Notes under the pieces: model-generated
The model's input: the letters and a program-made list of their open reading frames with translations, nothing else
Databases searched by the model: none
What the model was told of the DNA's origin: nothing
Position numbers and translations under genes: made by a program
In this document: positions 8,868 through 30,774 of the stretch, piece by piece
Layout: each line of letters opens with the position of its first letter
Numbering within the stretch: the stretch's first letter is position 1
Source: Symbiobacteriaceae bacterium
GTDB taxonomy: Bacteria; Bacillota; Sulfobacillia; Symbiobacteriales; Symbiobacteriaceae
DNA length: 64,000 bases
NCBI GenBank assembly: GCA_029239785.1
Contig: JARBUG010000007.1
Span: forward strand, 1-64,000
Direction of reading: 5' to 3'

Positions 8868-9617
8868 CTAACCTAAATAGGCCCGCATTTTCGCGATCCG
8901 ATCCATGTACGCCGCCCGCACCCGCCGATTGTGGTCGGATGCGCCCTCAAGGTTGCCGCTGCGCAGCACGGGCAGGGGGTTCATGCCTGCCGCCGCCAAC
9001 CGCTCCACCACAGCCGCCGTAATCGCCTGCATGATGAAGGCGCCGACGACTGTCGAAGTGGCGCAGGCCATCACGGCGGGCCCCCCCACCGGCAGCACCG
9101 CATCACCGGGCACGCCGCAGTTATCGATCACCACATCCGCCACCTCATACAGGCGCTTCCCGCTCGCGTGGTTCGGCGGCTGGCTGGCCGAATGCGCAAC
9201 CGAGGTTATGGCCGCCACCCGCAGGCCCCGTTCCCGACCATACAAGGCGGCCTCCACCGGCACCGCATTCCGCCCCGAATTCGAAATCACAATCAGCAAA
9301 TCGCCCGGCGAAAGCGGCTCCAACTCCATCAACCGCTGGACATACCCCGGCAGCCGCTCCAGCGAGCTGGACCGCTGCACGCCCTCATGCAACATCAGCG
9401 ACGGCTCCAAAATCGCATTCGCCAGCACCAGGCCGCCGGCCCGGTCGAACATCTCCTCGGCAATCATGTGCGAATGGCCCGTGCCAATGGCATGCATCAG
9501 GCCACCGCCCAAAATCGCCTCCGCCCCCAGGCGCCCGGCCTCGGCGATTGCCGCGCCCTGCGTCTCCATCACCTTTGACAGCATGCCGGTGACGGCGGTG
9601 TAGTATGCGCCAATCAT
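8868..9617 (-). CDS. SIS-domain protein (UPF0309-type), first-listed of a tandem pair
   Basis: A 249-residue SIS (sugar isomerase) domain protein. The conserved core is visible as IGTGHSHMIAEE (phosphosugar contact) and ISNSGRNAVPVEAA. The residues DNCGVPGDA and the C-terminal NLEGASDHN match the UPF0309 group, whose members resemble phosphosugar isomerases but lack a general assigned substrate. Its ATG overlaps the stop of the neighbouring SIS gene by 4 bp, so the two are translationally coupled. It may perform the isomerase or deaminase step that NagB would normally supply, since no NagB is present in the locus. Confidence 0.8.
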   Translation of the reverse strand: MIGAYYTAVTGMLSKVMETQGAAIAEAGRLGAEAILGGGLMHAIGTGHSHMIAEEMFDRAGGLVLANAILEPSLMLHEGVQRSSSLERLPGYVQRLMELEPLSPGDLLIVISNSGRNAVPVEAALYGRERGLRVAAITSVAHSASQPPNHASGKRLYEVADVVIDNCGVPGDAVLPVGGPAVMACATSTVVGAFIMQAITAAVVERLAAAGMNPLPVLRSGNLEGASDHNRRVRAAYMDRIAKMRAYLG

Positions 9618-10375
9618 GCGCCCACCCCACCGCCGATGCGGCCCGCATACTTCTTCCGCAGCGCCTCATTATGCGCATCGCCGCCATCGACGTTGGCGCT
9701 GATCAGCACGGGAATCTCGGCGCCCGCACGCTGCAGGCACCCGATGATCTCCGCCGTCAGCCCCTGGGCGATCAGGGCGCCCGTAATCGACGACACGGCG
9801 CAAACCTGATAATCCTGACCCTCAACGGCCAGTGCCGCGTCCCCGTACGGACCGCAATTGTCGATGACGATATCGGCAATCTCATACAGCTTCTTCCCGC
9901 TGGGATGCCGCGACGTCACCTGCGTCGTATGCGCCAGCGACGTGACGACGATCAGGGGATGGCCGTGCCGCTTCACCCGCATCGCCATCTCCACGGTGGA
10001 CCCGTTCCGGCCGGAGTTCGACACGATGATAAACGCATCCGTCGGGCGGATGTCGTACTGGGCCAACACCAGCTTGGCGGTCTCCGGGTCACGCTCCAGC
10101 TCAGGGCTGTGCCACAGCGACATGGGCAGCACCTGGCGCAGGAAGAGCAACTCCATATCGATGGCGTTCGCCGGCACGAGGCCGCCCGCCCGGCTGGCCA
10201 TCTCCATGGCGAAGGCCTTCGAGTGCCCGGTGCCAAAGACCTGAATCACACCATCTTGCATGATGGCGTTGGCAAGCAGTTCGCCCGCCTTGCGGATCTG
10301 CTCCATCTGGGTTGCTTCGAGCTTGGCAATCGCGGCCTGTGCTTCTGCAAAGAGAGCCGGTGCGGAAATTGGCAT
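9614..10375 (-). CDS. SIS-domain protein (UPF0309-type), paralogue of the neighbouring gene
   Basis: A 253-residue SIS-domain protein with FGTGHSKAFAMEM, VSNSGRNGSTVEMAM, SLAHTTQVTSRHPSGKK and DNCGPYGDAAL, the same layout as the gene at 8868. The two proteins clearly derive from one ancestor but have diverged, so they may form a heteromer or act on different intermediates. GAGAGGAG precedes its ATG; nagA ends 27 bp upstream. A role in phosphorylated amino-sugar isomerisation is inferred from domain and context. Confidence 0.8.
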   Translation of the reverse strand: MPISAPALFAEAQAAIAKLEATQMEQIRKAGELLANAIMQDGVIQVFGTGHSKAFAMEMASRAGGLVPANAIDMELLFLRQVLPMSLWHSPELERDPETAKLVLAQYDIRPTDAFIIVSNSGRNGSTVEMAMRVKRHGHPLIVVTSLAHTTQVTSRHPSGKKLYEIADIVIDNCGPYGDAALAVEGQDYQVCAVSSITGALIAQGLTAEIIGCLQRAGAEIPVLISANVDGGDAHNEALRKKYAGRIGGGVGA

Positions 10376-10402
10376 GGTGCTTGGCTCCTCTCTCGTGCTT
10401 GC

Positions 10403-11605
10403 TTAGTGGCAGATGCGTGCAGCCAGGAAGGCCGGGTTCAGCACCGGGGCCGGGTCCTCGGGCCGGCGCACAATCTCCCCGCCGATGACGGTGTAGCGCA
10501 CCTGCCAGTCAGCGCTCAGGACAACCAGGTCGGCATCCTTGCCCGGCGCCAGGCTGCCCTTGCGGGCGCCCAGCCCAATCGCCCGGGCCGCAGTCTGCGA
10601 CGTCATGTGAAGCGCGTCCGCCCAGGCGACTCCGAGCCCCTCCACCAAGTTGCGCAGGCCGTCCAACATCAGCTTGGTCGACCCGGCAATCGTCCCGTTG
10701 GCCAGCTTGGAGAAGCCCTGCTCGTCAATGCGTACATCGCGCCCCAGCAGGTGATAATCGCCGGGCGGCATGCCTGCCGCCGGAATCGCGTCCGATATGA
10801 CCGCGACCCGGTCGTACCCCGCCACCCGCAGCAGCACCTTCAGCGCCGCCGGGTGGACGTGCAGGAAGTCGCAAATGACTTCACAGAGCACCCGGTCGTC
10901 GGTCATGTAAGCGCCCAGTGCGCCGGGCTCCCGGTGGTGCAGACCCTTCATGGCGTTGTAGGTGTGATTCGCAATCCGCACCCCGCCGTCGATGGCGTCC
11001 GTGGTCTGGTCGTAGGTCGCATCGGTATGCCCGCCGGCCACGGCCACGCCCCGGGCCACCAGGTGGGCCGACACCTCCAGCGCCCCCGGCAGCTCCGGCG
11101 CCAGCGTCACCCGGCGAATGGTGCCGCCCGACAACGCGATGAGATGATCGACCTCGGCCAAGGACGGCGCCCGGAAGACGCTGGCGTTCATGGCACCTTT
11201 CATGGCGGTGCTGAGATACGGCCCCTCCAGGTGGGCGCCCAGAATACTCGGCGCCGCTGCCATCGCGTCACGAATGGCAACCACGGTCTGCTCCAGCACC
11301 TCGGGCGCCCGGGCCGATGCCGAGGGCAGGAATCCCGTCACGCCAAAGGCGGCCAGGTACGCGGCCAGACTGCCCAACTCAGCGGCCCCCACGCCCTCCA
11401 CCGGCCACCCCCCGGCCCCGTGAATATGCAAATCGATCATCCCAGGGATGATCCGGTCCTCGCCCACGTCGATGCGGGGCACGCCCGACAGCGCTTCCGG
11501 GACGGGACCCTCGCCAATCTCCACAATCCGCCCGTCTTTCACCAGGACAAACCCGTCCACGAGACCCGTTTCACACTGAATCCGTCGACTTACAAAGAGC
11601 TGCAA
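10403..11605 (-). CDS. nagA: N-acetylglucosamine-6-phosphate deacetylase
   Basis: A 400-residue amidohydrolase that removes the acetyl group from N-acetylglucosamine 6-phosphate or a close relative. Diagnostic motifs are GMIDLHIHG (metal-binding HxH), LGAHLEGPY, GHTDATYDQ, NAM.GLHHREPG and the catalytic VISDAI. The TTG at 11605 is favoured because GAGGTGG lies 6 bp upstream; this RBS is inside the end of the ceramidase-like gene, which stops at 11607. A longer start at 11620 is possible. The locus encodes an uptake PTS but no NagB, so the product probably goes to the SIS proteins. The exact N-acyl hexosamine cannot be decided from sequence. Confidence 0.9.
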   Translation of the reverse strand: MQLFVSRRIQCETGLVDGFVLVKDGRIVEIGEGPVPEALSGVPRIDVGEDRIIPGMIDLHIHGAGGWPVEGVGAAELGSLAAYLAAFGVTGFLPSASARAPEVLEQTVVAIRDAMAAAPSILGAHLEGPYLSTAMKGAMNASVFRAPSLAEVDHLIALSGGTIRRVTLAPELPGALEVSAHLVARGVAVAGGHTDATYDQTTDAIDGGVRIANHTYNAMKGLHHREPGALGAYMTDDRVLCEVICDFLHVHPAALKVLLRVAGYDRVAVISDAIPAAGMPPGDYHLLGRDVRIDEQGFSKLANGTIAGSTKLMLDGLRNLVEGLGVAWADALHMTSQTAARAIGLGARKGSLAPGKDADLVVLSADWQVRYTVIGGEIVRRPEDPAPVLNPAFLAARICH

Positions 11606-21388: not shown

Positions 21389-22027
21389 TTACTCCTCGGC
21401 CGGCGGTTCCGTCGCGGTCAGAATCTCCCGGGCCCGGGCCCGCTGGGCCTCGGCGCCCACGAGCGTGACCACGTCACCGGGCTTCAACTCCATATCGACC
21501 GGCGGCGAGAAGTAGTCCACCTCGCCCCGGGTCAGGGCCGCGACCGTGGCGCCGGTGCAGGTGCGCAGGCGGATATCCACCAGCGACCGGCCCGCCACCC
21601 AGGCGCCCTTCTTGATGACGACCTCCTCGACGTTGCGGGTCGAAAGGGCGCCGGTCGCCTGGCTCATGACCCGGTCCAGGGCCGCCTCGATGCGGGCGTT
21701 GATTTCGTCGCGCTGGCGCAGCAGCGCCCGCAGTTCCCGGGCGCCTTCCTCCAGCGTGGTGCGGGTGTGCTGTGAATCGAGGTACTCGACCGCAGCGTAG
21801 CGTGACAGCACCCGAATGCCGCTGCCCGCCACCGACTGCACAATGGAGCGCTCGGCCAGAATTGCCACAGCCCGTCGGATCGTCTCCGGCGATACCTGGT
21901 ACTGCCCGGCCAGGGCGGAGCGGCCCAGCACCCGGCTGCCTTCTGCCAGGTCCCCATCGGCAATCCGCTGTGCGATGTCCTGCGCAATCTCCTCATACCG
22001 AGCCCGCCCCACGGCATCCCGCTTCAC
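21389..22027 (-). CDS. GntR-family regulator with RCK_C (TrkA_C) domain, BusR-like
   Basis: A 212-residue regulator. Residues 8-75 form a GntR winged helix (RYEEIAQDIAQRIADGDLAE... and SPETIRRAVAILAE). Residues 85-125 look like a coiled coil. Residues 130-205 are an RCK_C domain, with GRSLVDIRLRTCTGATVAAL, a proline-containing loop and ELKPGDVVTLVG. This architecture is that of BusR, which represses compatible-solute transporters and is released or stabilised by cyclic di-AMP. The GTG start has AGGAG 9 bp upstream. With the OpuC-type operon 1.5 kb away, the same role is likely but not proven. Confidence 0.8.
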   Translation of the reverse strand: MKRDAVGRARYEEIAQDIAQRIADGDLAEGSRVLGRSALAGQYQVSPETIRRAVAILAERSIVQSVAGSGIRVLSRYAAVEYLDSQHTRTTLEEGARELRALLRQRDEINARIEAALDRVMSQATGALSTRNVEEVVIKKGAWVAGRSLVDIRLRTCTGATVAALTRGEVDYFSPPVDMELKPGDVVTLVGAEAQRARAREILTATEPPAEE

Positions 22028-24235: not shown

Positions 24236-24406
24236 GCAAGATCCCTCCCTCGCTCTCTTGACGTTTGAAGCACCCTCTCCGTTTCAGGCAGTTCATTTAA
24301 CAGCAGACCCACCGGCCACCGGGCAAGGTTCTGACATGAGAAACCAGCTTCTTATGACGTTACACATCAGTTACTATATATGTATTACCAACCAGGTGGT
24401 GGGCCT

Positions 24407-26923
24407 ATGCAGTGGCTCAGGAATCTCCCCCTTCATTTCAAGATCGCATCGGTAGGCGGTCTGGTCATCCTCCTCATGCTGCTGGCCCTGACCTTCTCCA
24501 CATCCAGCGTCAATGCGCTGACCGCGAGCCAAAAAGAGCAACAGGTCACCGTCGAAGTGGTTCACCACATCGAACAACTCCTGACCGACCTCGTCGATAT
24601 GGAGACGGGCGTGCGTGGCTACGTCATCGCCGGAAACCGTGAGTTTCTTGAGCCGTTTGAGGTCGGCATGATGCAGCACTCCGAGCATCTCACGCAGCTC
24701 GAGGAGCTGATGAGCGACGATTCGTCCCAACTCGACCGGCTGGCCCGCATCCGCACCCTGATTGGCCGCTGGCACGACGAAGTGCTGCTCCCCGAGATCG
24801 CCCTGGTCGAGGGGCAGCAGAAGGAAGCCGCCGTCGCCATGGTGCAGTCCAAGGCCGGCAAGGCGATCATGGACCAGATTCGCAGCCTGATTGGCGAAGT
24901 GAACGCGGTCAAACAGCGGCAGGCCGCTGACCTGGCCGCGCAGGTGACGCGCACCGCCGAACAGAGCCGGAACCGCACCTTTGGTGCGGCCCTGGGCGCG
25001 GTTCTCCTCAGCACGCTCGCCGCCTATGCGCTGGCACGCTCCATCACCCGGCCCATCCTTGGCCTCATGGATGCAGCCGAGCAGGTGGCCACGGGCGGCG
25101 CCGGCTACCAGGTCCCCGTCGGCGCCCAGGACGAGGTGGGCCGCCTTGCCACCGCCTTCAACCGCATGAGCGACTCACTCATGCACCAGCAGGTCGAAAT
25201 GTCGGCCCAGAATGAAGAGCTCCATGCCCAGCAGGAGATGCTCACCCACACCATGGCCCAGCTGGAACGCGACAGCGACCGGCTGCGGCGCCTGAACCAG
25301 TTTTCCCGGTCGATGGTCAGCACCGACATTCCCTCGCTCTCCCGGCGGCTCCTGGCCGATCTGCTGGCCGCCTCCGGCGCCCAAGTGGGCGCCCTTGCCC
25401 TGCTGGACTCCACCGGCGATTTGAAGATCCAGGCGCAGGTCGGGCTTACGGAAGCGGCTGCGGCGGCGCCCCGGGTAACCGGCCTCTTCCAGGAGGCGCT
25501 CACTGCCGACGAGCCGCTGGCTGTCACCTACCCGAACGGCGCGCTCCTCCGCCCGGTCTACCATACCGACCTGCCGGTGGAGCACGAACTCTACGTGCCT
25601 ATTCGCTTCGGCGGCGAGACGCTGGCGGTGGCCGCCCTGGGCCGCACCGGCCCGGCGCCCTTTCCGCAGGAAGATATCCACTGGCTGACGATTATGGCGG
25701 CCCAGGCGGCGGCCACGCTCAGCAACACCCTGGGCTATGAGAAACTCAGCGAAGCCTTCACCGATTTGCAGGACAGCGCCGCCCACATTGAAGAGCTGAG
25801 CGCCCAGATCGAAGAGGAGCGGGACCGGGTGCGGGCCCAGCGCGATAACCTGCGGGCCATCCTCCAATCCACGTCCGAAGGCGTCTGCCTCGTCAGCCTC
25901 TCCGGCCTGCCCATTCTGGTCAACGACCAGTTCTGGCACCTGTTCGGCGCCGACTCCCGGCAGGAACTGACGATGGATGAACTGGGCGAGCTGATTCGCC
26001 CCCGCCTGAAGCACCCCAAGGCGGCCGGCAGCTTCATTCAGGCCATGCTCAGCCAGACCACCAGCACCGATGTGCTGGAGTTCGCCGAACCGGAGTACCG
26101 TGTGCTCCACCGTTTCACCACGCCGGTCTTTGCCGAAGATGGCAAGCTGCTGGGCAGCCTCTTCGTCCTGCGCGACGTGACCCGTGAGGCCGAAATCGAC
26201 CGCATGAAAACCGAGTTCATCTCCACGGTCTCCCATGAGCTGCGCACGCCGCTCACCGCCATTCGCGGCTACGTCGACCTGATTTTAGATGGCGACGTCG
26301 GCCCGATCTCTGATGAGCAGCGTGAGTTCCTGGACCTGGTCTCCCGCAGCACCGTACGGCTCGCCAACCTGATCAACGACCTGCTTGATGTTGAAAAGAT
26401 CGAGCAGGGGCGGATTCACATCAGGCAGGAAGAAGTGAACGCGGCCGCACTGCTGCGTGACGTCGTGGAGACCTTCCGGGTCAGCGCCGCCGACAAGGGG
26501 CTTACCTGCGACGTGACCGTCGAAGGGGCGCTGCCGCCCGTGTACGGCGACCCGGATCGGATCACCCAGGTCTTCAGCAACCTGCTCTCCAACGCCGTCA
26601 AGTACACCAAGGCCGGGGGCATTACCATCCGGGCCGCTGCCGATGCCGACCGGCTGACCTTTACCTTCGCCGACACGGGGATCGGTGTGGCGCCGGATCA
26701 TCTGCCCAGCCTGTTTGAGAAGTTCTACCGGGTGGACAACCAGTACACGCGCGAGGTCGGCGGCACAGGCCTGGGCCTGGCCATCACCAAAGCGATTGTG
26801 GAACACCACGGCGGCACCATCGAAGTCCAGAGCGAAGTTGGCACGGGAACCACGTTTGTGGTCACGCTCCCCGCCCACCGCGGCATTACGTCCCCCTCGG
26901 CCGGCAACCCGGCCCATTCGTAG
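24407..26923 (+). CDS. Sensor histidine kinase (CHASE3-HAMP-GAF-PAS-HisKA-HATPase)
   Basis: An 838-residue membrane kinase. TM1 lies near residues 10-30 and an extracytoplasmic CHASE3-type domain (EVVHHIEQLLTDLVDMETGV) follows. Next are TM2 (about 190-210), a HAMP domain and a coiled coil, then a GAF-like domain (about 300-440), another coiled coil and a PAS domain (AILQSTSEGVCLV). The kinase core has the H-box FISTVSHELRTPL with His610, the N-box NLLSNAVKYTK, DTGIGV and GTGLGLAI. The ATG at 24407 is preferred to one 27 bp upstream because GGTGGTGGG precedes it. It probably phosphorylates the receiver protein 23 bp downstream. The CHASE3 signal is unknown. Confidence 0.9.
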   Translation: MQWLRNLPLHFKIASVGGLVILLMLLALTFSTSSVNALTASQKEQQVTVEVVHHIEQLLTDLVDMETGVRGYVIAGNREFLEPFEVGMMQHSEHLTQLEELMSDDSSQLDRLARIRTLIGRWHDEVLLPEIALVEGQQKEAAVAMVQSKAGKAIMDQIRSLIGEVNAVKQRQAADLAAQVTRTAEQSRNRTFGAALGAVLLSTLAAYALARSITRPILGLMDAAEQVATGGAGYQVPVGAQDEVGRLATAFNRMSDSLMHQQVEMSAQNEELHAQQEMLTHTMAQLERDSDRLRRLNQFSRSMVSTDIPSLSRRLLADLLAASGAQVGALALLDSTGDLKIQAQVGLTEAAAAAPRVTGLFQEALTADEPLAVTYPNGALLRPVYHTDLPVEHELYVPIRFGGETLAVAALGRTGPAPFPQEDIHWLTIMAAQAAATLSNTLGYEKLSEAFTDLQDSAAHIEELSAQIEEERDRVRAQRDNLRAILQSTSEGVCLVSLSGLPILVNDQFWHLFGADSRQELTMDELGELIRPRLKHPKAAGSFIQAMLSQTTSTDVLEFAEPEYRVLHRFTTPVFAEDGKLLGSLFVLRDVTREAEIDRMKTEFISTVSHELRTPLTAIRGYVDLILDGDVGPISDEQREFLDLVSRSTVRLANLINDLLDVEKIEQGRIHIRQEEVNAAALLRDVVETFRVSAADKGLTCDVTVEGALPPVYGDPDRITQVFSNLLSNAVKYTKAGGITIRAAADADRLTFTFADTGIGVAPDHLPSLFEKFYRVDNQYTREVGGTGLGLAITKAIVEHHGGTIEVQSEVGTGTTFVVTLPAHRGITSPSAGNPAHS

Positions 26924-26946
26924 CACACCCCCAAGGAGGCCTTCCC

Positions 26947-27309
26947 ATGCCAAAGGTGCTCATCGTCGAAGATGACCCGCAGATCGCCCGCATCGTCCAA
27001 ATCAAGCTGACCAACAACGGCTTTACCGTCATCCATGCGCCGGACGGGGGCGCCGGCCTGGCTGCCGTCAGGGAGCATCGGCCCGACCTGGTCCTGCTCG
27101 ACGTCATGATGCCTGTGATGGACGGCTACCAGGTCCTCCGGTCTCTCCGTGCGGAGCCGGAGTTTGCCAAGCTGCCGGTGATCATGCTGACGGCCAAGGG
27201 CCAGGAGCGCGATATCCTCCACGGCTTCAAGGATGGCGCCACGGACTACGTGGTCAAGCCGTTCAGCCCCGCCGAGGTGGTCGCGCGGGTCCAGCGGGCG
27301 CTCCGTTAG
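26947..27309 (+). CDS. Receiver-only response regulator
   Basis: A 120-residue CheY-like receiver with no output domain. The acidic pocket is VEDD (7-10), the phosphoacceptor is Asp52 in LVLLDVMMP, and the conserved Thr and Lys are in MLTAK and VVKPFS. CAAGGAGG precedes the ATG. Lying between the kinase and the HEAT-repeat gene, it most likely signals by protein contact, perhaps with the HEAT scaffold, instead of binding DNA. Confidence 0.9.
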   Translation: MPKVLIVEDDPQIARIVQIKLTNNGFTVIHAPDGGAGLAAVREHRPDLVLLDVMMPVMDGYQVLRSLRAEPEFAKLPVIMLTAKGQERDILHGFKDGATDYVVKPFSPAEVVARVQRALR

Positions 27310-27319
27310 TTGCGCAGCC

Positions 27320-28423
27320 ATGGCAGATAACACCCCTGTTGCCCTGGAGGTCGCTCTGCTCGCCGTATATAGCCTGGCGATTCTCCTGCTGATCATGGTG
27401 GCCTATACGATCCTGCACCGCTTTCTGTCGCTCTGGCAGGAGGGCTACGCGGCCCGGCGCCGGGCCCGCCTGGAGGAGGCGGTCGCCATGCTGGTAGCCG
27501 AAGAGACCGACCCAGTCCGCTTCCTGCGGCAGCTTCCCCGGGCGGACTACACCTACGCCGAGGAGCTGTTGCTGGAGTACGCGGCCAAGTTCGGCCCCGA
27601 AGTCCGGTCACGGCTGGCACCGGTCTTTGACGCTACTGGTGCGCTGCAGCGGAACCGGCGGCGGACCCGCTCCCGCAAGTGGTGGCGCCGGGCTGACGGC
27701 GCCCGGCGCTTCGGCCTGATGGGCGACGCGAACGTCTCCCGCTTTCTGCGGCCCCTGCTCAGGGATGGGAATGTGGAAGTGCGCATGGCCGCAGGCCGCT
27801 CCCTGCTTGAACTGGGCGCCACCGACTGGATCGATGACCTGGTGCAGACCCTGGCCGACCCCAACCTGCTGAGCACCCTGCGCATCGCTGATGTGATCCT
27901 GGGCGCCGGCGCCCAGGCGGTGCCCAGCCTGGTCGATTTCATCAGCGCCAACCCGGGCGCCCGGGGCGTGACCACCGCCCTGGAAATCCTGGGCGATATG
28001 CGGGCCGTGGCTGCCAGCCCGGTCATCGCCGGCCCGCTCCAGACCTCCTCCAGTGCCGATGTGCGTGCCGCGGCCTGCCGTGCCCTGGGCCGCCTGGAAA
28101 CCCCGGACGCCGTGGAACTGCTGGTATCCGCCCTCGATGATGAGGCCTGGGAAGTGCGCGCACAGGCGCTGCGGGCGTTGGGGCGCATTGGTGACCCCAC
28201 CGCCGCACCGGCGGTCTTCCGACTCCTCGCAGGTGAGAACCCCTGGGTCATCTTCAACGCTGCCACTGCCCTCGCCGCCATGGGCCCCGACGTCCACCTG
28301 CAACTTGAGGAAGCGTACCGGCGCCGCCTGGCGACCGAGGCCGGCGCCCCCTCCATGCTGACCCGGGTGCTGGGTGAGGTGCTCAGCCCATATCTCCCGG
28401 AGGGGCAGGTGACGGTCGTATGA
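27320..28423 (+). CDS. Membrane-anchored HEAT-repeat protein
   Basis: A 367-residue protein with one N-terminal transmembrane helix (LEVALLAVYSLAILLLIMVAYTIL). A basic linker (RNRRRTRSRKWWRR) follows. The rest is at least five HEAT/PBS-lyase-like repeats, seen in VEVRMAAGRSLLELGATD, DVRAAACRALGRLETPDA and EVRAQALRALGRIGDPTA. HEAT arrays are protein-binding scaffolds. Its stop overlaps the start of the glycosyltransferase gene by 4 bp (ATGA), implying equal production and probably a complex. No clear ribosome binding site precedes the ATG at 27320, so its translation may depend on the receiver gene 11 bp upstream. Confidence 0.85.
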   Translation: MADNTPVALEVALLAVYSLAILLLIMVAYTILHRFLSLWQEGYAARRRARLEEAVAMLVAEETDPVRFLRQLPRADYTYAEELLLEYAAKFGPEVRSRLAPVFDATGALQRNRRRTRSRKWWRRADGARRFGLMGDANVSRFLRPLLRDGNVEVRMAAGRSLLELGATDWIDDLVQTLADPNLLSTLRIADVILGAGAQAVPSLVDFISANPGARGVTTALEILGDMRAVAASPVIAGPLQTSSSADVRAAACRALGRLETPDAVELLVSALDDEAWEVRAQALRALGRIGDPTAAPAVFRLLAGENPWVIFNAATALAAMGPDVHLQLEEAYRRRLATEAGAPSMLTRVLGEVLSPYLPEGQVTVV

Positions 28424-29829
28424 CCTGGTGGAGCACCATCGTCCTGGGCTACAACGGCCTGATCTTCAGCTACTTTATCTTCGTGGACACGTTCTACGTC
28501 GTCATGACGCTCCTGGCGTTCAAGGCGATTCTCACGCACCTTATCCATACCCGGCACGTGACCCCGTACCGTCTCTACCAGTCGGGTATGACCCCGCCCA
28601 TCTCCATTCTCATGCCCGCCTACAACGAGGCCGCCACCATTGTCGAGTGTGTGCGGTCCATGAGCCTGGTCCGCTACCCGGAGACCGAAATCATCGTCAT
28701 CAACGACGGCTCCAAGGACGCCACGCTCCAAACCCTGGTCGACACTTTCGGCCTGAAACCCGTGCAGCGGACGCCCCTGCGTCCGCTGTCGCACAAACCG
28801 ATTCGCGGCACCTACGCCTCGCCGAACTACCCGAACCTGCTGGTGGTCGACAAGGTGAACGGCGGCAAGGCCGATGCCCTGAATGTAGGTATCTCCCTCT
28901 CCCGCTGCCCCCTCTTTTGCGCGGTGGACGCCGACTCGCTCCTCCAGGAAGACGCCCTGGAGCGGGTGGTGCAGCCCTTCCTCCAGAACCCCAGAACGGT
29001 GGCAACCGGCGGCTTCATCCGGGTGGTGAACGGGTGTGCCGTTCACGCCGGCCGGGTGATCAAGGTCGGCCTGCCGCGCAACCTGGTCGCCCTCTTTCAG
29101 ATCGTGGAGTACCTGCGGGCCTTCTACCTGGGCCGCATGGGCTGGAACCCCACCGGTGGCCTGCTGATCATCTCCGGCGCCTTCGGCCTCTTCAAGACCC
29201 AGGCCGTGGCCGAAGTGGGCGGCTACCTGACCAGCAGCGTCGGGGAGGATATGGAACTCGTCGTCCGCCTCCACCGGCAGATGGCCGAGCGGGGGCAGGA
29301 GTACGAGGTCGCCTTCGTGCCCGACCCGGTCTGCTGGACCGAAGTGCCCGAGTCAACCAAGGTGCTGGGGCGCCAGCGCGACCGCTGGCACCGGGGCCTG
29401 CTCGACACCCTCATTCGCCACCGGGGCATGCTCTTCCGGCGCCGCTACAAGGCCGCGGGTATGGCTGCCATGCCGTACTTCTGGCTGGTGGAGGTCTTCG
29501 GGCCGGTCATTGAGCTGTCGGGCTATGTACTAATTCCCGTTGCCGCCTGGCTCGGGCTGATTAACTGGTTCGCCTTCCAGGTCTTCCTGGCGCTGTCGAT
29601 CCTCTTTGGCATCCTGCTCTCTGTCTCGGCGGTTCTGGCCGAGGAGCTGAGCTTCCGGCGGTACCGGTCGTACGGGCAGCTGCTGGCGCTGTTCGGCATC
29701 GCGGTGCTGGAGAACCTCGGCTACCGGCAGCTGACGGGCTGGTGGCGCCTGCGGGGCATTTACACCTTCCTCAAGGGCGGCCACCAGTGGGGCGAAATGA
29801 CCCGCAAGGGCTTCTCCAAGGCCAGCTGA
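28420..29829 (+). CDS. Membrane family-2 glycosyltransferase (PgaC/IcaA-like, processive)
   Basis: A 469-residue membrane enzyme with one or two N-terminal helices and about four C-terminal helices around a cytoplasmic GT-A domain. Nucleotide-sugar motifs are ILMPAYNEA, VINDGSKD and FCAVDADS. The base region is GEDMELVV, and QRDRWHRG is the QxxRW motif of processive beta-glycan synthases such as poly-N-acetylglucosamine or cellulose synthase. The polymer cannot be named from sequence; no deacetylase, export or PilZ partner lies nearby. Coupling to the HEAT gene and linkage to the kinase pair suggest that synthesis is switched on by the sensed signal. Confidence 0.88.
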   Translation: MTWWSTIVLGYNGLIFSYFIFVDTFYVVMTLLAFKAILTHLIHTRHVTPYRLYQSGMTPPISILMPAYNEAATIVECVRSMSLVRYPETEIIVINDGSKDATLQTLVDTFGLKPVQRTPLRPLSHKPIRGTYASPNYPNLLVVDKVNGGKADALNVGISLSRCPLFCAVDADSLLQEDALERVVQPFLQNPRTVATGGFIRVVNGCAVHAGRVIKVGLPRNLVALFQIVEYLRAFYLGRMGWNPTGGLLIISGAFGLFKTQAVAEVGGYLTSSVGEDMELVVRLHRQMAERGQEYEVAFVPDPVCWTEVPESTKVLGRQRDRWHRGLLDTLIRHRGMLFRRRYKAAGMAAMPYFWLVEVFGPVIELSGYVLIPVAAWLGLINWFAFQVFLALSILFGILLSVSAVLAEELSFRRYRSYGQLLALFGIAVLENLGYRQLTGWWRLRGIYTFLKGGHQWGEMTRKGFSKAS

Positions 29830-29871: not shown

Positions 29872-30459
29872 TCACCCGGGCTGGCAGGACCCGGAAGGGC
29901 TGGCGCCCGCGAACGCCCAGTCCCGCCGCAGCAGGCCATACAGAGCTGTATCGGTCACTTCGCCGTTTACAATCCATCGCTCCCGCAAGAAGCCCTCTTC
30001 TTGAAACCCCAGACGCCGGAGGGTCCGTGCGGATGCTTCATTGCGCGGGTCGATGTCGGCTTCAATACGATTGAGGCCAACGTCAGAGAAGGCCCAGTCC
30101 AGCAAGGCAGACAGCGCCTCATGCATAAACCCATGGCCCCAAGCCGCATGTGCCAGCGCATACCCCACCTCGGCCCGTTTGCACTGCTCGCTGAAACTGA
30201 AGAGACTGCACGTGCCAATGATCCGTCCATCAGTCTGGCGCTCAATGCCGATCTGAAGATACTCACCACTTGCCAGCGCTGCATTGGTCCTGGCAATAAA
30301 ATGGTTCGCCATCTCCGCGCTGCTCCACGGTGGCGTTGACCAGAAGCGCATCACGGCGGGATCCGAGAAAATCTCGAACAGGTCGGAGGCGTCATCCTCC
30401 CGAAGCGGGCGGAGAACTAGGCGAGCGGTACGGAGGGTCACCTGATCAAAAGACCGCAT
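29872..30459 (-). CDS. GNAT N-acetyltransferase (RimJ/RimL-like)
   Basis: A 195-residue acetyltransferase. The N-terminal TLRTARLVLRPLREDDASDL is the classic start of the RimJ-type GNAT fold. The acetyl-CoA region reads VGYALAHAAWGHGFMHEAL, and NEASARTLRRLGFQEEG forms the last helix-strand. Family members acetylate ribosomal proteins, amino acids or antibiotics; no substrate is evident. The ATG at 30459 follows GGGGTG by about 9 bp. The gene is convergent with the glycosyltransferase operon. Confidence 0.82.
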   Translation of the reverse strand: MRSFDQVTLRTARLVLRPLREDDASDLFEIFSDPAVMRFWSTPPWSSAEMANHFIARTNAALASGEYLQIGIERQTDGRIIGTCSLFSFSEQCKRAEVGYALAHAAWGHGFMHEALSALLDWAFSDVGLNRIEADIDPRNEASARTLRRLGFQEEGFLRERWIVNGEVTDTALYGLLRRDWAFAGASPSGSCQPG

Positions 30460-30635
30460 TACATTCACACCCCACAGGCAGAAGCGTAACATCCTTCGCA
30501 CTACTTCATGACCGGCGCCAGGATCTCCTTTGCCGCTCCGAGGCAGCACACTTGCTGCACCAACTCCGGTTTACCCTCGCGCACATCCACATGCCCGCGG
30601 CCACAAGCAAGCAGTCTGCCCGGGCTTCTAGAGGA
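30460..30635. other. Gap between the GNAT gene and the tRNA terminator
   Basis: No supported gene. On the minus strand about 40 codons ending at TAG 30501-30503 look protein-like (ending GAAKEILAPVMK) but have no plausible start. They could be the remnant of a decayed gene. Confidence 0.3.

Positions 30636-30686: not shown

Positions 30687-30689
<3 letters not shown>
30636..30689. terminator. Bidirectional terminator directly attached to tRNA-Leu
   Basis: A perfect 24-bp inverted repeat (30636-30659 with 30666-30689, 6-nt loop). Each strand reads as a G+C-rich inner stem followed by a pyrimidine-rich tail (TTCTCTTCTTT). The arm nearest the tRNA includes the encoded CCA end at 30687-30689. 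Confidence 0.8.

Positions 30690-30774
<85 letters not shown>

Follow-up and report, generated by a model that had tools for sequence, protein, structure and literature searches.

The four genes analyzed here most likely encode a synthase-dependent polysaccharide machine in which a membrane glycosyltransferase has a HEAT-repeat protein as an obligate subunit facing the cytoplasm, and this machine is switched by a co-encoded receiver. We consider it reasonably probable that the product is a surface polysaccharide and that the switch is post-translational, driven by phosphorylation. The evidence comes from the gene organization in the window (the whole 64,000-nucleotide stretch of a Symbiobacteriaceae contig that was analyzed) and from a survey of related loci.

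The four-gene locus

Four plus-strand genes at 24380–29829 of the window, delineated from open reading frames and Pfam matches, code for a sensor kinase, a receiver, a HEAT protein and a family-2 transferase (Table 1). The kinase and receiver genes are separated by 23 bp, the receiver and HEAT genes by 10 bp, and the HEAT and transferase genes overlap by 4 bp (ATGA); a scan of the locus detected no terminator-like site on the plus strand inside the unit. An earlier, sequence-only reading had described four adjacent genes with the last two overlapping, in agreement with these coordinates, and its kinase start at 24407 is indeed an in-frame ATG, with an alternative ATG at 24380 in the same frame. 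Because both flanking genes lie on the opposite strand, the unit comprises exactly four genes, and because the same gene order recurs in many other genomes, the arrangement is not due to chance. The HEAT gene is present in a single copy in the host genome (5.5 Mb in 302 contigs).

Table 1. Features of the locus and its surroundings (positions in the window)
Feature	Position	Strand	Basis and remarks
GntR-type DNA-binding domain fused to TrkA_C (RCK-C)	21389..22027	-	unusual fusion
Predicted secreted or membrane protein, 210 residues	23603..24235	-	no Pfam match; flanking gene, just upstream of the kinase and divergent
Membrane sensor histidine kinase	24380 or 24407..26923	+	Pfam; variable signal input
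Receiver-only response regulator, PhoB-like, without DNA-binding domain	26947..27309	+	Pfam, residues
HEAT-repeat protein, one N-terminal transmembrane helix	27320..28423	+	Pfam, topology, AlphaFold2 model; start ATG 27320
Membrane family-2 glycosyltransferase, DAD and QRDRW, no PilZ	28420..29829	+	Pfam, motifs, fold
Flanking gene	29872..30549	-	
tRNA-Leu	30687..30774	-	about 860 bases past the transferase end

The domain composition of the GntR-TrkA_C fusion protein suggests a ligand- or ion-sensing regulator. The transferase is absent from the other sampled members of the family to which the organism belongs and, given the nearby tRNA-Leu gene, acquisition by transfer beside the tRNA is possible.

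The transferase and its HEAT partner

The transferase (469 aa; Glyco_tranf_2_3, E 1.3e-21) contains both motifs attributed to it by the sequence-only reading, DAD (residues 170-172) and QRDRW (residues 319-323), and D170/D172, E276-D277 and Q319/R322/W323 are invariant in 59 relatives. The AlphaFold2 model (mean pLDDT 93.8) shows the best match among solved folds to the Chlorella virus hyaluronan synthase (E 7e-17) and also matches cellulose and chitin synthases. With the DAD, ED and QxxRW motifs and a predicted GT-A fold, the protein can be assigned to the superfamily of hyaluronan synthases, BcsA and chitin synthases, and is predicted to be processive. No PilZ domain, the hallmark of c-di-GMP control of the BcsA and Alg44 type, was found in 59 transferases of the family, nor in three transferases with C-terminal extensions. 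One relative (L041:6965-8917, plus strand) carries a C-terminal bactofilin domain that links the synthase to a cytoskeletal polymer.

The best NCBIfam model for the window transferase is PgaC_IcaA, which matches all 59 relatives (best E 4.7e-47; window protein 9.7e-41). Identification as a PgaC/IcaA poly-GlcNAc synthase was nevertheless rejected, with a TIGR03937 score of 140 bits compared to the equivalog cut-off of 422, and neither a PgaD-type short membrane partner nor a PgaB deacetylase was found beside the transferase at the window locus.

The window HEAT protein (367 aa; HEAT_2, E 1.7e-39) contains one predicted N-terminal transmembrane helix (residues ~11-29), in line with the membrane anchoring proposed earlier, and the AlphaFold2 model (mean pLDDT 93.1) is closest to solved HEAT and alphaRep solenoids. 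A single predicted helix is typical of the family (94 of 108 proteins), and the positive-inside rule places the solenoid in the cytoplasm for 92 of 104. A protein in which a secreted domain of about 700 residues is fused ahead of the HEAT helix (L141) agrees with this topology. The HEAT sequences diverge fast (14–31% identity), such that a search of the class with the HEAT protein alone retrieved nothing except itself, and therefore the transferase was chosen as the search anchor.

The HEAT gene is located directly upstream of the transferase gene in every surveyed locus (86 + 29) where DNA is available there; among the five loci that the script scored as lacking HEAT, one is a truncated contig and the other four have the gene, with a longer or offset open reading frame. 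In two loci (L149 and L151), HEAT and transferase are fused in one protein, with a receiver-containing gene directly upstream. Given this linkage, the fusions and the cytoplasmic topology, the conclusion that the two proteins form one machine is well supported; they are presumably in direct contact.

Distribution and variants of the cassette

A close relative of the transferase was detected in 7 of the 154 genomes of the class, that of the window included. All six others carry a HEAT gene immediately before the transferase gene; one of them (L009) also encodes a receiver and a kinase, the latter being a hybrid kinase built unlike that of the window. Across 84,980 species scanned with the transferase, the best 80 loci (42–57% identity) span about a dozen bacterial phyla: they come from Gemmatimonadota, Bacteroidota, Neomarinimicrobiota, Actinomycetota, Bacillota, Pseudomonadota, Acidobacteriota, Cloacimonadota, Bdellovibrionota, Elusimicrobiota, Chloroflexota and Myxococcota as well as two archaeal bins, with the caveat that the assignment of bins can be wrong. 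Within the phylum of the window, sampled evenly, 29 of 399 genomes gave matches, and no relative of the transferase was found in viral contigs.

In many Gram-negative loci, a TPR/YaiO outer-membrane barrel, the part expected for export through the outer membrane, is encoded between the receiver and HEAT genes or just downstream. Many Bacillota loci encode a family of secreted proteins of about 700 residues without a Pfam match, namely L152 (7121-9262, minus strand), L024, L050, L078, L084, L126, L135, L139 and L141; in Paenibacillus (L084, L091), this protein is doubled. This partner was not detected in the host genome when a single, distantly related Bacillota member served as the query, which is a weak negative.

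In L152, genes for DUF4956 and CotH (9277-11433, minus strand) precede the row of secreted protein, HEAT and transferase genes, as in NELoc-2 of Clostridium perfringens, and a possible function of this CotH/VTC module is to modify or anchor a surface protein or the polymer. The NELoc-2 genes CP4_0466-0468 encode, in a row, a 685-aa protein, a 377-aa HEAT protein and a 466-aa family-2 transferase annotated as 'chitin synthase' (PMC2879425). The order and lengths, by which alone homology was judged, match the Bacillota branch represented by L152 (CotH, a 713-aa protein, HEAT, transferase); NELoc-2 is reported only as associated with certain strains, is uncharacterised and lacks a receiver (PMC2879425).

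The receiver and the kinase

The window receiver (120 aa) consists of a Response_reg domain alone (E 1.3e-30), with D9, D52, T82 and K104 all in place, and thus is the output-less regulator with an acceptor Asp52 that the sequence-only reading described. A receiver was scored as present when its gene lay no more than 3 kb upstream of the HEAT stop codon, in loci with at least 4 kb of upstream sequence. By this measure, the first set has a receiver in 56 of its 69 loci and the second in 16 of its 26, which makes 72 of the 95 testable loci. The third gene most often found in the cassette is thus a receiver competent for phosphorylation. The phosphorylation residues (acidic, Asp, Lys) are retained in 73 of 80 cassette receivers; the other seven are degenerate, some with a Glu in place of the acceptor Asp, so phosphorylation is not used in every cassette. 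The Glu-for-Asp receivers (L076, L093, L149) may be permanently set switches. The cassette receivers appear to be a largely coherent subfamily: their mean identity is 34% compared to 27–28% for the other receivers of the same loci, and the receiver tree requires 21 label changes against a mean of 55 (minimum 47) after shuffling.

The kinase, 847 aa long if translated from the ATG at 24380, comprises CHASE3 (E 7.6e-35), HAMP, GAF, PAS, HisKA and HATPase domains identified with Pfam; CHASE3 is flanked by two predicted helices, and the catalytic core resembles PhoR, WalK and PnpS at scores below the cut-offs for these names. A HisKA-HATPase kinase and a receiver with an acceptor Asp are thus encoded together, as in two-component systems, and phosphotransfer between the two can be predicted. 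Only 18 of the 78 cassettes with a receiver have a kinase nearby, which indicates that, of the two regulators, it is the receiver that is conserved, and that the kinase is exchangeable.

The notion of a conserved four-gene set accordingly had to be given up: HEAT-transferase pairs are common without the kinase, and some also stand apart from any receiver. The control of the synthase by the receiver through HEAT, the central claim of the sequence-only reading, survives without the kinase as part of the unit, on the strength of the HEAT-transferase pairing, the cytoplasmic location of HEAT and the frequency of the receiver. The inference of the sequence-only reading is thus partly supported, the regulated core being receiver, HEAT and transferase, with a kinase that is swappable and, in some lineages, a receiver that is swappable as well.

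Conservation of HEAT with and without a receiver

We compared, in an alignment of 93 loci, column conservation between receiver-bearing and receiver-less cassettes. Among the HEAT columns conserved in the receiver-bearing cassettes, those of residues 85–230 show a mean drop in conservation of 0.30 when the receiver is absent, compared to 0.05 for columns 231–367 and 0.10 for the transferase columns. The strongest HEAT column, a Gly at 93, falls from 0.91 to 0.18, whereas a conserved D–W–V–R stretch within 231–367 is kept with or without a receiver. In the window protein itself, the Gly is shifted forward by one position (G92), and the C-terminal stretch (GENPWVIF) differs from the consensus. 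The loss of the N-terminal columns combined with retention of the C-terminal ones suggests that the N-terminal half of HEAT faces the receiver and the C-terminal half faces the transferase. This assignment is suggestive only: the comparison was made post hoc, and descent, which the naive Fisher test (p 1e-9) ignores, is a confounder; a phylogeny-aware test gave only 5 independent pairs, 2.9 in agreement and 0 in disagreement, with a median p of 0.25, and single transferase columns also track receiver presence.

A model of regulation and its alternatives

We propose the following mechanism. The transferase, judging from its family and fold, would polymerise a polysaccharide and extrude it through the inner membrane. 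HEAT would be its obligate non-catalytic partner, anchored by the helix, with the solenoid in the cytoplasm, in physical contact with the synthase. The co-encoded kinase would phosphorylate the receiver at Asp52, and the phosphorylated receiver would dock directly on HEAT, probably on the N-terminal repeats (residues ~85-230), with the C-terminal repeats holding the transferase; docking would turn the synthase on or off. The input is modular, with other genomes swapping the kinase or replacing the receiver by GGDEF-receiver or GGDEF proteins, and also adding an export part, either the YaiO barrel or the ~700-aa secreted protein. Points against this mechanism include the 17 of the 93 analyzed loci that contain the HEAT-transferase pair without a receiver close by, the seven degenerate receivers and the possibility that a co-encoded receiver acts elsewhere.

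The latter possibility is the essence of a different explanation, namely that HEAT serves the synthase only in assembly or stability, in a role like that of PgaD or Alg44, whereas the receiver and kinase are merely co-transcribed and act elsewhere, for example, in a phosphorelay that ends at a transcription factor. The receiver-less pairs are compatible with this scenario, and receiver-only proteins often serve in phosphorelays (PMC12802240). We nevertheless consider it rather unlikely because, over about a dozen phyla, the receiver gene keeps its place ahead of HEAT (67/89 upstream vs 6/89 downstream where the locus has sequence to either side), the receivers are a coherent subfamily, and neither an Hpt domain (5 of 63 cassette receivers) nor a DNA-binding domain (Trans_reg_C, 1 of 63) is conserved with them.

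Alternatively, c-di-GMP could be the real ligand of the HEAT-transferase pair, the receiver modulating local c-di-GMP production upstream. The receiver slot is occupied in several Bacillota by a protein combining GGDEF and receiver domains or by a GGDEF protein alone, the latter with its motif intact; GGDEF domains are present on 9 of 63 cassette receivers, and the host genome encodes 19 of them. Thus, c-di-GMP may matter in some lineages, and the strict analogue of c-di-GMP control without c-di-GMP that the sequence-only reading envisaged was drawn too cleanly. As a general explanation, however, c-di-GMP control is distinctly unlikely: about half of the cassettes, that of the window included, have receivers that are receiver-only by length (at most 160 residues; 42 of 80) and carry no cyclase domain, the transferase family lacks PilZ, and the two loci with a HEAT-transferase fusion, L149 and L151, no longer have the GGDEF motif. 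From the variation in the receiver slot, which can hold a receiver, a GGDEF-receiver or a GGDEF protein, HEAT seems able to take different inputs.

Chance adjacency of a kinase-receiver pair and a HEAT-transferase pair, with which the usual absence of the kinase elsewhere would agree, is highly improbable and strongly disfavoured by the survey, given the tight 10-bp and 4-bp junctions in the window and the recurrence of receiver-HEAT-transferase in independent phyla.

Regulation by the receiver through HEAT thus remains our preferred reading. Whether it defines a phylum-spanning class, in which an obligate HEAT subunit is a regulatory port and a phosphorylated receiver or, in some lineages, a GGDEF-type protein binds its N-terminal repeats and gates the synthase, replacing PilZ and c-di-GMP, we regard as evenly balanced.

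Relation to known systems

In the textbook form of control of synthase-dependent exopolysaccharides, c-di-GMP acts on the synthase or its partner. PgaC/PgaD and IcaA are poly-N-acetylglucosamine synthases that are c-di-GMP controlled in Gram-negatives. They share with the window cassette a family-2 membrane synthase and a non-catalytic membrane partner, which is small in PgaC/PgaD; in the window, the partner is a HEAT protein, and the cassette has no cyclic-di-GMP module. BcsA/BcsB is similar in the synthase fold, the presence of a membrane partner and, in Gram-negatives, the outer-membrane TPR barrel (the BcsC role, YaiO in the relatives of the window cassette), and differs in that the window cassette has HEAT and a receiver instead of PilZ and BcsB.

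Full-text literature searches, with subscription papers outside their coverage, found no published receiver-HEAT-synthase system. The nearest precedent is EpsW of Myxococcus xanthus, a single-domain response regulator that, when phosphorylated, activates the initiating phosphoglycosyl transferase EpsZ (PMC12802240, mBio 2025); for synthase-dependent pathways, post-translational control frequently involves c-di-GMP (PMC12802240). The window cassette would resemble EpsW-EpsZ in that a receiver-only regulator exerts post-translational control of polysaccharide production at a membrane transferase. However, EpsZ, which is contacted directly, is a monotopic phosphoglycosyl transferase and belongs to a Wzx/Wzy pathway, whereas the putative target in the window is a family-2 synthase with a HEAT subunit between it and the receiver.

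Xanthomonas xagABCD was weighed as a possible characterised example of the cassette; the papers examined on this operon mention no HEAT protein and no receiver. The 'HEAT repeat' matches in the Xanthomonas literature pertain to the unrelated XopN effector.

Implications

If the proposed mechanism is correct, the window cassette would mean that receivers also control synthase-dependent systems, by way of a HEAT subunit, and the presence of receiver-HEAT-synthase cassettes in about a dozen phyla would amount to a second, phosphorylation-driven route of control. Such a route would explain many orphan receivers encoded beside transferases and would provide a role for a large set of genes that are currently named only 'HEAT repeat protein' and 'glycosyltransferase'.
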